A DNA stretch of 64,000 nt. It comes from Gemmata sp. Lineage in GTDB: Bacteria; Planctomycetota; Planctomycetia; Gemmatales; Gemmataceae. Each line of letters starts with the position of its first letter. Positions within the stretch are counted from its first letter, which is position 1. Position numbers and translations under genes: made by a program. The notes under the pieces were generated by a model. The model had not been told where the DNA came from and searched no databases. It worked only from the letters and a program-made list of their open reading frames with translations. The DNA lies in assembly GCA_025055115.1 (NCBI GenBank), contig JANWYJ010000029.1:1-64000 (forward strand), read 5' to 3'. This document shows, piece after piece, positions 3,777 to 15,016 of this stretch.

Positions 3777-4244
3777 TCAAGGAACCACGCATTTTGTCCA
3801 CTCCGGCTGAACCACTAGACCGGGTACGGGTATCTCATAAGCGTCCCAATCTGCTGCCTGTGCGAATGTGACGTTGACAAGACTCGACCCCCTCTCGCCA
3901 GCTTTCACGTTGCAGTCGTAAACAGGAGCCTTCGTGTACTTGTAGAGAGTGTAATTGACTCCTTGCCCTTTGTGATTACCGGGGTCCGGGGCGGTGGCGA
4001 GAAGGTCACCGAACTGTTGTGGGTTCGGCGCGTGGAGGATCGGAATGGTCAACTCTTTGTTGTTTGGATCGGGTTTCCTCATTCCAGTCGGTCGGGGATC
4101 GTAGGACGTCTTTGGATCAACGGGAACCCAAGCTTTCATCTCTTTGCATGGGCACTCCACACAGTCTCCGAGTGAAAACCCTTGACGCGGCAACAGCAGA
4201 AGACAACTGATACTGAAAGCCACTAATAGAAACACGGTGCGCAT
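3777..4244 (-). CDS. Small secreted protein of unknown function
   Basis: The 155-residue product starts with a good signal peptide (MRTVFLLVAFSISCLLLL, cleavage near residue 24) and then a cysteine cluster, DCVECPCKEM. The rest is soluble and rich in Pro, Asp and aromatic residues with two more cysteines, so disulfides are likely. I do not recognise a family. It lies 33 bp downstream of the LolA-like gene and 38 bp upstream of the DUF1559 gene, all on the minus strand, which suggests one transcript. Confidence 0.7.
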   Translation of the reverse strand: MRTVFLLVAFSISCLLLLPRQGFSLGDCVECPCKEMKAWVPVDPKTSYDPRPTGMRKPDPNNKELTIPILHAPNPQQFGDLLATAPDPGNHKGQGVNYTLYKYTKAPVYDCNVKAGERGSSLVNVTFAQAADWDAYEIPVPGLVVQPEWTKCVVP

Positions 4245-4277: not shown

Positions 4278-5402
4278 TTAGCCGGTTGGGTTCACCGGCT
4301 CGTTCCTTCGATCACGCCGCGTTCGACGGATCACCAAAGCAATGAGAACGCTGACCACGACAAGCGCCAGCCAACGCCAATTCCGCCGAACCCAGTACAG
4401 AGGGTCTGTTGGTCCCGCAGTCTGAACCAACTTGCCATCTTTGACCACGTATTGATAGAAGTCGATTTGCGGATCCTGTTGACCTTTCGGCAACTCGTAG
4501 TGGCTCCTGCCTACCTTTGCTCCTTCGGGTGGCACGACATCGTATGTGTTGTTCGGACCAACGGGAACGTCTTCGGCGAAGTGCAGAACCTTTACCTTGA
4601 CGGTCTGAATGGGCGCGGCATCCAGATTCCACGAGACGTAGGTCCATTCGGTGATGGCCCACTGTCTGGTTCCTGTGACAGGCTCTACTTTGATGTCCAG
4701 GGATAGCGAGGGTTTCCCTTTCACGGTGTACCAGAATCCGACGATTGCGTTGTCTTTCTCGGTGTCAATGAGATACTCTTACTGAATTGGTGCGATTGGG
4801 TTTTCTGGGAAGGTTTTGAGCGAAATGCATTTGCGATTATCCCGTATTACTTCTCCCTGAATGAAGAACTTCTCTGCGACTGGTTCGATGACAAAGTGCC
4901 CTGGATAAAACACGTCATCGTGCCCCGGTATCATGCCTTTGTGCAAAAACACGGGCCAGTACTCATACTTGAAGGTCCTTGAGTTCAATCGTCCCGTAAC
5001 CATTCCATACTCCCAAGTCCCATCCCCTGTGGGTTTGCCTTCCCGTGTGACAGCTCGGAACTGTGTTTTCAGCTTCTCTCCATCGTACATTTCGATCTGC
5101 TCGAACGGTTCGATTTGACACCCATCCCAGCCAGATTGTCGAAACTTTCCGGATTTCCACTCGACTTGAAATTCCTTCAGAATGCGACAGTTTCCAGTTG
5201 CGACGCCCTTGTTAAAGCCGGTGCGTACAAACTCCAGTTTGTAGACTTGGTTTCCTTGCCGGTCGCGCTTTTCCTTCAGTTTGCCCAACAGATCGGCCAG
5301 AGCTTTCCTCTTCGCATCCGGATTCGGTTCCTCCCCACCTGAGGCGGGCGAGAGAACGCCCAACGCCATTACCAACGGAAGTACCCACATGCTGCGAATC
5401 AT
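4278..5402 (-). pseudogene. LolA-like secreted protein, interrupted by one in-frame TAA
   Basis: The reading frame from the ATG at 5402 encodes a signal peptide and 207 residues ending ENPIAPIQ, then a TAA at 4779-4781. After that single codon the same frame continues without another stop to 4278, reading EYLIDTEKDNAIVGFWYTV and so on, about 374 codons in all. The part after the stop carries on the beta-strand pattern of LolA/outer-membrane-lipoprotein-sorting folds and ends in a membrane segment followed by basic residues, so both halves clearly belong to one gene. One C-to-T change of a CAA codon would explain the stop. The start overlaps the preceding gene as ATGA. It could be a fresh pseudogene, a base-call error or a readthrough site. 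Confidence 0.85.
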
Positions 5403-5914
5403 CGTGCAGCCTCCAATAGAACTCCGTTCACGAGCAGATCGAGTGAAGCAACAGGTTCACTTCCGCTTGGCGGGATATTGGCAACAGTTAGAACGCCCCG
5501 GAATGGCCCAGGCTGTTGATCCGTGCGAGGTGAGACAACAATCTTCCACTCAGTTGCACTAGCGCCAGGAGAGACTTTCACAGTAAGCGTTAGACGAATC
5601 TCACGTGACTCATTTGGGTGGAGTGTGAAACTATTCGGTTCGACTAGGCGACAGTTGCATCCAGTCTGGAAGTTAGTGATTTGAATGGAACGTACTGAGC
5701 GATTCTAGATCGGGAGAGGGATCGTGGCTTCGTTTGCGTCAACCCACACTTCGCCGAAGTCGAGGTATTGGGGATCGACGGTCAGTGCGGGTTGTTCAGG
5801 TTCGGAGGGAACTGGTTGTGTGTTCCGAAAGGGCCAGCGGGCAACCAACACTGCCGCGCCCGCAGCCAACAGGGAAGCGACAATATACAAGATTGCCACT
5901 TGTGTTCGACTCAC
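5399..5914 (-). pseudogene. DUF1573 protein, interrupted by one in-frame TAG
   Basis: From the GTG at 5914 the frame encodes a membrane anchor (residues about 5-27) and the start of a DUF1573 Ig-like domain, FGEVWVDANEATIPLPI, then a TAG at 5705-5707. Beyond it the same frame continues as NRSVRSIQITNFQTGCNC and runs on to 5399. The GCNC motif is the conserved SCGC-type element of DUF1573, in the right place, so the domain is complete apart from one codon, probably once CAG, AAG or GAG. The final TGA overlaps the ATG of the next gene (ATGA), showing that the operon architecture is preserved. The adjacent downstream gene has the same kind of lesion. Confidence 0.85.
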
Positions 5915-11924: not shown

Positions 11925-11974
11925 GGACCGGTTGCTGTTCCTTCATCCTGGATTGGCTTCTGTGAGGATTGTTT

Positions 11975-13228
11975 ATGGCTTTGACGGCGTTATTTACGGG
12001 GTCTTCTGCGTTGCAAGCGAACTCCTTCGCTCTCGACGTGGTCGGTAACAACCTCGCCAACCTGAACACGTCCGGATTCAAAACGCAGCGGACGCTGTTT
12101 AAGGACATGATGTATCAGACACTCAACCCCGGTTCGGCTCCCAGTGCCACTAGCGGGGGAACCAACCCATCGCAAAACGGTTTTGGTGTCGCGGTGGGGG
12201 CCATCGACACGCTCTTCCAACAAGGCTCAGTCTCGCCGACAGGACGGTCGCTCGATGTCGCCATCCAAGGCCGCGGTTTCTTCACCCTGACCAACGGGCA
12301 GACGACGGTTTTCAGCCGCGCTGGTTCCTTTGCGATTGATGCGGCCGGGTTTTTGGTCGATCCCAATACGGGTTTCCGTGTTCAGCGCACCGGAACCGTG
12401 GGCGAACCTGGCGGGACCAATCCCGGTTTCCAAATCCCGGGCAATAACGACATTCGCGTGCCTCTGGGAGCCGGCGCACCGGGTACACAAACAAGCTTTG
12501 TCAATTTTCAAGGAAATCTGAGTAGTTCGTTAGCGATTGGGGATTCCGTCACCGCAGGGATTCAAATTTACGATTCCCAGTTCAATCCGCGGGCACTGAC
12601 CATTACCTTCACCAAAACCGCAGTGAACACGTTCAATATCAGTGGCTCCGTTTCGGGGGGGACGGTCAGTTTCTCCACGACGGCGATTAACTTCGACACA
12701 GCCGGTTTGTTGGTCGGCCCAGCCAGTATCGACATGGACATCACGGGCATTCCCGGCGTAGCGGCACAAACGGTGACGTTGAATCTGGGTACACCGGGAC
12801 AAACCACGGGATTGACACAGTTTGGTGGTGTCAGCACCGCTACTGCGGTCACGCAGGATGGGACAGGTTTCGGCACACTGGTGAGTGTTTCGTTTGATAA
12901 TCAGGGCATCCTGCAAGGGCAATTCAGCAATGGCCGCACCATTCCGCTAGCCCAATTGGCGATCGCCGGTTTTACCAACGATGGCGGTTTGCTGCGGTTT
13001 GGGAACAACTACTTCATCACCTCGTCGGCCTCCGGGGAAGCGTTGATTGGGGTCGCAGGGTCGGGGGGGTTGGGTACCACGCAGGGGTCGTCGCTGGAGG
13101 GGGCCAACGTCGATATCGCGATTGAATTTTCCCGGCTGATTGTAGCGCAGCGAGGCTTCCAGGTGAATGCTCGGACGATCAGTGCCGCCAACGAGACGTT
13201 GCAAGAACTGGCCAATATCGTGCGGTAA
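11975..13228 (+). CDS. flgE: Flagellar hook protein FlgE
   Basis: I choose the ATG at 11975 with the gtgagga site at 11962-11968. The 417-residue protein has the rod/hook N-terminal motif ALQANSFALDVVGNNLANLN and the central hook-domain beta structure. The C-terminal motif, including LEGANVDIAIEFSRLIVAQR, ends in ANETLQELANIVR. It polymerises into the hook joining the basal body and filament. It is the last gene of the plus-strand flagellar run and ends 28 bp before the end of the opposing fliO gene. Confidence 0.96.
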   Translation: MALTALFTGSSALQANSFALDVVGNNLANLNTSGFKTQRTLFKDMMYQTLNPGSAPSATSGGTNPSQNGFGVAVGAIDTLFQQGSVSPTGRSLDVAIQGRGFFTLTNGQTTVFSRAGSFAIDAAGFLVDPNTGFRVQRTGTVGEPGGTNPGFQIPGNNDIRVPLGAGAPGTQTSFVNFQGNLSSSLAIGDSVTAGIQIYDSQFNPRALTITFTKTAVNTFNISGSVSGGTVSFSTTAINFDTAGLLVGPASIDMDITGIPGVAAQTVTLNLGTPGQTTGLTQFGGVSTATAVTQDGTGFGTLVSVSFDNQGILQGQFSNGRTIPLAQLAIAGFTNDGGLLRFGNNYFITSSASGEALIGVAGSGGLGTTQGSSLEGANVDIAIEFSRLIVAQRGFQVNARTISAANETLQELANIVR

Positions 13229-13256
13229 TCGCAGCCAACCGAGTCGATGATGCCGC

Positions 13257-13700
13257 TCAACCGGAGGCCCCTTCACCCGCCTCCGGTTTTTCGTGGGATG
13301 GGTTCACGTTGGCCAGAACATCGTCGAAGGGTTCGGAGAGCAGCACCATCGACCGTAGCCCAGTCGCATCGGTGGTGACTGCGACGGTGTATTCGTCGGC
13401 AGCTACCAGATAGAGCCAACTGCGGCGATCCAGTGCCCAAGAACCAGTCTGGCGCAGCCGCGGGCTGTGCTTCAGGGCGTGGGGTTGCGTGAGGCGGCGG
13501 GCCGACCACAGCACGGCAGCGCAGAGGATCAGCAGTCCGAGTGTGATGGCCACCAGCCGGGCTAGCAAGCCCGCGGCATCGGGCGGTGGGGGGGCCTGGG
13601 GAGGGGTGTACTCCAGCCCCGCCGGCGGACCGGCGCTGGCCAACGAAGCCTCGCCCACCAGCAGAGCCGCTATACTCACCATCGCGAGAAGTCGGTTCAC
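13257..13700 (-). CDS. fliO: FliO-like flagellar export assembly protein
   Basis: The 147-residue product starts at a GTG with a signal-like segment, has a proline-rich linker, a membrane helix at about residues 44-66 (LLARLVAITLGLLILCAAVLW) and a small cytoplasmic beta domain. FliO proteins show this layout and help the FliP pore assemble. Identification rests on layout plus position directly after fliN, since sequence conservation in this family is low. FliP/Q/R do not follow here, because the cluster meets flgE. Confidence 0.75.
   Translation of the reverse strand: MNRLLAMVSIAALLVGEASLASAGPPAGLEYTPPQAPPPPDAAGLLARLVAITLGLLILCAAVLWSARRLTQPHALKHSPRLRQTGSWALDRRSWLYLVAADEYTVAVTTDATGLRSMVLLSEPFDDVLANVNPSHEKPEAGEGASG
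13259..13291 (+). terminator. Hairpin terminator between flgE and fliO
   Basis: The arm aaccggagg at 13259-13267 pairs perfectly with cctccggtt at 13280-13288 across a 12-nt loop, and a run of five T follows at 13287-13291. It would end the plus-strand flagellar transcript after flgE; it overlaps the last codons of the opposing fliO gene. Confidence 0.7.
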
Positions 13701-13760
13701 GGTTCCGTCGTTCCCTTCCGTGGGGTTGGGGCGATACCACCATGTTGTTTTCCGGTCGGC

Positions 13761-14132
13761 TCACGTCTCGAGAGTTCCCGTTCGGGGGGCGAGTAAGCGG
13801 GTGATCCGAACGGCGAAGTGATCGTTAACGACAATCACCTCGCCCGCGGCAAAAGGTATACCGCGGACGGTCAGTTCCACAGGAGCCGTGATTTCCTCTT
13901 CCAATTCCACCACCGAACCGGGGCCGAGTTTGAGAATAGCCCCAATCGGCAGTGTGGTATGACCGAGGCGGGCCGTGATGGTGATGGGCACATCACGGAT
14001 GGAATCGAGAGGTGTCCCGTGGTGGGCGGTGGCGTGTGGATCGAGTTCGGGGAACTCCGGTCGGCGGGCCTCCACCGTGGCGGTTTCGGCTCGGGGCGGT
14101 GTTTCGGTGAGAGTCGCGGCAGTTTCCGACAT
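13761..14132 (-). CDS. fliN: Flagellar motor switch protein FliN
   Basis: The 123-residue protein has a variable acidic N-terminal half and a C-terminal SpoA domain from about residue 42 (LDSIRDVPITITARLGHTTL), with GSVVELEEEITAPVELTVRG as the second conserved block. FliN forms the base of the C-ring with FliM. It starts 20 bp downstream of fliM and is followed by fliO after 60 bp. Confidence 0.93.
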   Translation of the reverse strand: MSETAATLTETPPRAETATVEARRPEFPELDPHATAHHGTPLDSIRDVPITITARLGHTTLPIGAILKLGPGSVVELEEEITAPVELTVRGIPFAAGEVIVVNDHFAVRITRLLAPRTGTLET

Positions 14133-14152
14133 AGGTGGTCTCGCGTGGTGGT

Positions 14153-15016
14153 TTACAGTTCGTCGGCGGCCGAGTCGATGACCACCGCAGCGCGTTGGCC
14201 AATCACGCCCGGCCAGACGCGGAATTTACGCATCCCTGATAATAAACCGTCGAGGGGTTGGTCGATCTTTTGGCGCAGAACGACGACATCGCCCGTTTGC
14301 AGTTGGGCCACATCGTCCATGCTCAGTTCGGCCGTTCCCAAAACAACTGTCAGATCGACGGGCATCGCTTGCACCACGTCATCAATCGAGGCTGACTGTT
14401 GCGGTGGCGTTGGAGCCGGGGCTTCGCCCTGCGCGAACACCGCGCCGATACCACTGCGCGGGATGAGTAAGTAAATAGGGTAGTCACCAAAGGGCAGCTT
14501 CACATTCAGCCGGGCCAACAGGAGCAAATCTTCGAGGGGTCCTCGCCAGGCGCGCCGGGGGGAAGTCAACGCCCCCGGTTGCAATTGCGGAGCTTGTTCC
14601 TGCGGCCAACTTTGGATCAGCGGCTCGATGAACAACTCTTTGGCCAAATACCCTATCAGTGATTGTTCGAGTTCGGTGGGTTCGCGATCGGCGGGTAGCG
14701 CCGGAGGGACTTCGCCCACCAAGCCGGCCAGCAAGGTCAGCAATACTGGTCGCGGGAACGCTAAGACGAACGTTCCTTCAGCGGGAGAAACGGCTGTAAG
14801 CGGCAGCGCGATTGTTTCGGCACCGAGTGTCTGAAAAGCCGACACCACGTCGATCATTTCGACCGTGGCCAGAGTCCATTCGGCCGGGAAGGGGAGCGTT
14901 CGCGCCCACGGGCCGGCCGCTCGACGACAAGCAGCGGAAAGCCATTGACTGGCGCGGTGACCGAGGACTCCCGGGGGTGGTTTACGGAAATCGTACACAA
15001 CCGGTGTCGCTGTCAT
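14153..15016 (-). CDS. fliM: FliM-like flagellar motor switch protein
   Basis: This 287-residue protein has a CheC-like middle domain and a C-terminal SpoA domain (about residues 205-275) with MPVDLTVVLGTAELSMDDVA. It is shorter than enteric FliM (about 334 residues), and I cannot see the N-terminal EIDALL-type CheY-P docking motif: the protein starts directly with MTATPVVYDFRKPPPGVLG. Its start overlaps the end of fliL as ATGA. It forms the C-ring with FliN and takes part in torque and switching. Confidence 0.9.
   Translation of the reverse strand: MTATPVVYDFRKPPPGVLGHRASQWLSAACRRAAGPWARTLPFPAEWTLATVEMIDVVSAFQTLGAETIALPLTAVSPAEGTFVLAFPRPVLLTLLAGLVGEVPPALPADREPTELEQSLIGYLAKELFIEPLIQSWPQEQAPQLQPGALTSPRRAWRGPLEDLLLLARLNVKLPFGDYPIYLLIPRSGIGAVFAQGEAPAPTPPQQSASIDDVVQAMPVDLTVVLGTAELSMDDVAQLQTGDVVVLRQKIDQPLDGLLSGMRKFRVWPGVIGQRAAVVIDSAADEL

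Follow-up and report, generated by a model that had tools for sequence, protein, structure and literature searches.

Two adjacent stop-interrupted genes of a four-gene cluster in a Gemmata draft genome are probably recent pseudogenes

Introduction

Among the described systems, nonsense pseudogenes of bacteria stand closest to the locus reported here, with premature stops, orthologues that are intact in other genomes, an additional deletion and a patchy distribution. The present genes differ from them in that change in the protein is not faster than in an intact neighbour, and the loss is visible by the lesions only. Stop-codon recoding, by a suppressor tRNA or a reassigned code, shares with the locus a coding frame that goes on past a stop. 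Unlike recoding, however, the locus comes with no suppressor tRNA found, no other interrupted match in the families scanned, intact release factors and a stop that is not conserved. The DUF1573 (PF07610) proteins of planctomycetes are alike in the profile match above cut-off, the TGCxC motif and the N-terminal anchor, but the gene studied here has an internal segment missing and carries one stop. The parts of the literature on Gemmataceae pseudogenes and on DUF1573 in Planctomycetes that were available to us held nothing of use.

In the present study, we analysed the first 64,000 nucleotides of contig JANWYJ010000029.1 of a Gemmata sp. assembly (GCA_025055115.1); this whole stretch is called the window. 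The genome (G000) is a draft of 100 contigs, 4.93 Mb in size and 98.1% complete; contig 22 contains the window. The minus-strand genes of the cluster are, in order, DUF1573, a second gene for an anchored exported protein, a protein of about 150 aa, and DUF1559. Judged from these parts, our guess is that the cluster has an envelope role with membrane-anchored proteins. Elsewhere in the window (11969-15016), some proteins look by eye like products of flagellar hook and FliM/FliN/FliO-type genes.

Results

Two genes with one internal stop each

The features of the cluster are as follows.

5402..5914 (frame 5399-5914), minus strand: DUF1573 gene with GTG start, interrupted and internally shortened; PF07610 at 28.2 bits against a cut-off of 26.1; syntenic orthologues in G003 and G115
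5705..5707, minus strand: in-frame TAG in the DUF1573 gene; CGC (Arg) in both syntenic orthologues
5584..5585, approximate and uncertain by a few codons, minus strand: junction of an in-frame loss in the DUF1573 gene (...IRLTL / TVKVSPG...), read from the alignment
4278..5402, minus strand: second gene (called LolA-like in the first-pass annotation), 374 codons; no Pfam, NCBIfam or PDB sequence match
4779..4781, minus strand: in-frame TAA in the second gene; TTC (Phe) in G003, TAC (Tyr) in G115
5399..5402, minus strand: ATGA overlap of the DUF1573 gene and the second gene; kept in G003 too
3777..4244, minus strand: third gene, an open frame of 155 aa; its orthologues in G003 and G115 measure 143 aa and up to 164 aa
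2839..3801, minus strand: fourth gene, DUF1559 with prepilin N-terminus, open; PF07596 at 134.6 bits; used as intact-neighbour control

The DUF1573 frame has 172 triplets including the final stop and the second-gene frame 375, and each holds exactly one internal stop, TAG and TAA respectively, as the first-pass annotation had claimed. The ATGA overlap between the two genes, also claimed there, was found intact, and its counterpart in G003 lies at L003:847-850. By eye, the second gene has a signal-like N-terminal segment and a C-terminal membrane anchor. The DUF1573 gene has an N-terminal anchor, again judged by eye, and a TGCxC motif common to G003 and G115.

The label DUF1573 was borne out by the profile score listed above, which was obtained with the TAG read as X. 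The label LolA-like found no support in sequence searches of Pfam, NCBIfam or PDB. The window protein had no Pfam match at E 0.1, and its two orthologues gave only sub-threshold matches to unrelated families (E 0.14 and 0.17). In NCBIfam, no match at E 0.1 was obtained for the window and G003 proteins, and a profile of all three second-gene proteins had no PDB sequence match at E 1. In addition, a structure model of the G003 orthologue reached a mean pLDDT of 43.6, too poor for a fold search.

Orthologues and distribution of the cluster

We looked for the second gene in 59 genomes (its own and 58 relatives) and afterwards used a two-row profile on 95 family genomes including its own, 66 of which have a completeness of 90% or more and a contamination of 5% or less. 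Full-length, stop-free orthologues were found at G003:C602 (44% identity) and G115:C1103, that is, in 2 of the 94 family genomes other than G000. The other matches, five further rows in each search, were weak and stop-free, and a further scan of genome contigs gave one locus, again that of G003. The order of the four genes is uninterrupted in both G003 and G115, and the second gene of the cluster measures 347-374 codons. Since these two genomes have sense codons at the places of the stops and matching protein beyond them, both interrupted genes were once single genes. This patchy distribution looks like, and fits, that of a dispensable accessory cluster.

At the TAG column, 15 DUF1573 loci were compared, of which 11 reach it (the match of L015 ends before the column, and L016, L020 and L023 gave no row); the residues there are R in three, T in three, Q in two, and E, A and K, with no stop. 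The codon of the syntenic orthologues, CGC, would need three base changes to become TAG. No stop occurs inside any homologue match of the second gene or of DUF1573 in the other genomes. The first-pass annotation had named natural ends of the homologues at these two places as a finding that would speak against an interruption; neither G003, G115 nor the other matches reaching both columns end there.

The open frames of the 15 other DUF1573 matches (14 frames, two matches sharing one) are 260-499 aa long, with one exception. This frame of 117 aa belongs to G002, a genome in the same genus that consists of a single contig (L015, G002:C1 near 1392000). The match in this short frame covers residues 2-58. 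By eye, the frame runs for about 18 residues beyond the TAG position, so that its end is near but not at it, and it overlaps the frame of an exported-looking protein by ATGA. A related gene may have been shortened separately here, or a short form may be of use.

Constraint beyond the stops

In both genes, the same frame goes on past the stop with matching protein, as the first-pass annotation had held; because the frames after the stops align to intact orthologues, this continuation is more than chance. Compared with G003, the part after the TAG differs in 38% of amino acids over 99 codons, with mismatches of 0.25/0.21/0.65 at codon positions 1/2/3, and the part after the TAA differs in 61% over 152 codons (0.49/0.40/0.66). 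Before the stops, the mismatches are 0.42/0.29/0.58 in the second gene and 0.50/0.44/0.59 in the DUF1573 gene, where conservation is weaker. These codon-position mismatches against G003 show the sign of coding constraint.

The stretch 5402-5704 (DUF1573 after the TAG) has a GC3 of 0.416; an equally low value was found in 1 of 1813 windows of 101 codons, the mean of such windows in 443 kb of G000 being 0.678. Long drift as a reading of this low GC3 was rejected, since the stretch remains conserved at codon positions 1 and 2 (mismatches with G003 of 0.25 and 0.21).

An internal loss in the DUF1573 gene

The DUF1573 gene has 171 codons including the stop codon, and the syntenic orthologues have about 250. 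We found that between ...IRLTL and TVKVSPG... there are 84-92 residues in all eight aligned homologues (8 of the 15 DUF1573 loci, picked for good matches) and none in the window gene. The loss is in frame, comprises about 85-90 codons, and joins the initial part of one beta-sandwich-like unit directly to the end of the following one. It is a third, independent lesion, which was overlooked in the first-pass annotation. The earlier description of otherwise clean frames thus stands for the one internal stop in each gene, but not for the DUF1573 gene, which is also without a segment present in its homologues. The loss probably spoils the DUF1573 fold and would disable the protein. No further disabling lesion was seen in the second gene.

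Rate of protein change

Residues unique to G000 were counted against those unique to G003. The ratios were 7:7 before and 15:5 after the TAG in the DUF1573 gene, and 29:14 before and 22:17 after the TAA in the second gene. The intact DUF1559 neighbour gave 39:21, from which none of the four counts of the broken genes differs (Fisher P 0.36-0.84). An excess in G000 over G003 appears in 29:14, 15:5 and the intact 39:21 (sign test P 0.03-0.04); since the intact DUF1559 gene shows it as well, it does not single out the broken genes. The counts thus gave no sign of relaxed selection on these genes. As their proteins have changed no faster than that of the intact neighbour, the lesions are placed late relative to the split of G000 and G003. 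Decay would then be legible in the lesions only, the sequence change apparently matching that of the intact neighbour.

Stops, tRNAs and release factors in the genome

Within family matches in G000, no stop was found in 59 DUF1559 and 62 Pkinase matches (together 29,113 codons), a count that is blind to frameshifts such as that in the DUF1559 gene on contig 57. The latter gene (G000:C57:8331-9175) consists of two adjoining pieces in different frames, with a probable frameshift. Among DUF1573 matches, one of five holds a stop, namely the window gene.

A codon-usage scan for interrupted genes over 443 kb gave 10 candidates among 1660 stops with 50 open codons on either side. It was not used as a rate because the two stops of the present finding were not picked up by it. 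The scan candidates at 13761 and 36676 in the window look, on inspection, like ordinary boundaries of adjacent genes.

The genome has 53 tRNA genes by Rfam. The suppressor tRNA proposed for a search by the first-pass annotation was not seen: ARAGORN, run on 50 loci or stretches holding all 53, gave no cta, tta or tca anticodon, a search that could miss an aberrant suppressor unseen by both programs or one on unassembled DNA. On contig 14 (G000:C14:49336-50334; L059:9337-10337), ARAGORN found eight clustered tRNA genes, of which Rfam recovered seven (29-61 bits). Three are Leu tRNAs of only 75-77 bases, and none of the eight has a stop anticodon; a mobile element may carry the array. In G000, both of two release-factor genes have open frames; one contains PAT (RF1-like) and the other SPF (RF2-like), motifs that mark RF1 and RF2. 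Furthermore, the ends of 220 long, non-overlapping and mechanically picked open segments (443 kb, about 9% of the genome) are TGA in 118, TAA in 58 and TAG in 44.

Discussion

Our reading of the locus is ordinary gene decay, with assembly error as its main rival. The first two genes of the four-gene cluster are most likely recent pseudogenes, left by the decay of a dispensable and patchily distributed operon. Each gene would have taken one nonsense change, and the DUF1573 gene would additionally have lost about 85-90 codons in frame. Translation stopping at the TAG would leave an anchored stub of 69 aa, and translation stopping at the TAA a fragment of 207 aa without the conserved C-terminal part and the membrane anchor. 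The function of the cluster would be dispensable and its loss recent relative to the split from G003. Several points stand against decay: the unique-residue counts give no sign of relaxed constraint, the internal loss preserves the frame, the two genes still overlap by ATGA, and codon positions 1 and 2 are conserved after the TAG. In addition, a short DUF1573 form may be tolerated or of use, given the short frame with an ATGA overlap in G002.

The first-pass annotation had left the choice among very recent loss, base errors and suppression. Recent loss is now supported by the intact syntenic orthologues, the third lesion and the neighbour-like rate of change; suppression found no support beyond the open frames, and base errors became less likely. 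In the case of base errors, one or both stops would have arisen in the draft assembly, and apart from the internal deletion the genes would be uninterrupted in the organism. The genome is indeed a draft of 100 contigs, and the protein encoded beyond each stop seems to be under normal constraint. However, the absence of stops in 29,113 codons puts the 95% upper rate at about 1e-4 per codon, which would give 0.056 stops in 545 codons and a P of 0.0015 for two or more; this figure is post hoc, the place having been chosen for its stops, as is the Fisher test of 2/545 against 0/29,113 (P 0.0003). Over the whole genome, such a pair of stops could arise by chance at the upper rate. The CGC of the syntenic orthologues is three bases away from TAG, but two other homologues have Gln at this column, for which the codon CAG would be only one base off. 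Base errors would also leave the internal deletion unexplained. With clean genes elsewhere making them less likely, we consider base errors an improbable source of the stops, though the strongest competitor of decay.

Shortened or split products might still work, be it as a short DUF1573 leader, as a secreted second-gene fragment of 207 aa, or as fragments restarted at downstream start codons such as GTG 4724 and GTG 5581. The DUF1573 frame of G002, which ends soon after the TAG position and has an ATGA in common with the frame behind it, is in line with this. The stops, however, lie inside conserved sequence, the second gene loses a conserved GAKVGRS stretch together with the anchor, and no homologue match has an internal stop, so that working short products seem very unlikely. 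Still less credit can be given to readthrough of both stops, by a suppressor tRNA or leaky termination, with full-length proteins made. The conserved protein after both stops and the kept ATGA overlap would suit it, but the two stops are different and neither occurs in any homologue match, no other stop-interrupted match was found in the three families scanned (DUF1559, Pkinase and DUF1573), one of the genes has a large internal loss, and there is no stop anticodon among the 53 Rfam tRNAs beside open release factors. By the same measure, it is hardly conceivable that leaky readthrough of both stops sets the level of a two-protein unit in one lineage, with the shortened DUF1573 domain still working.

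Ordinary decay of the first two genes therefore remains our preferred reading. The separate pieces would be given by gene callers as several unrelated small ORFs, and it is the orthologues that show them to be two genes of a four-gene cluster. Beyond annotation the finding matters little; readthrough, if true, would matter more.
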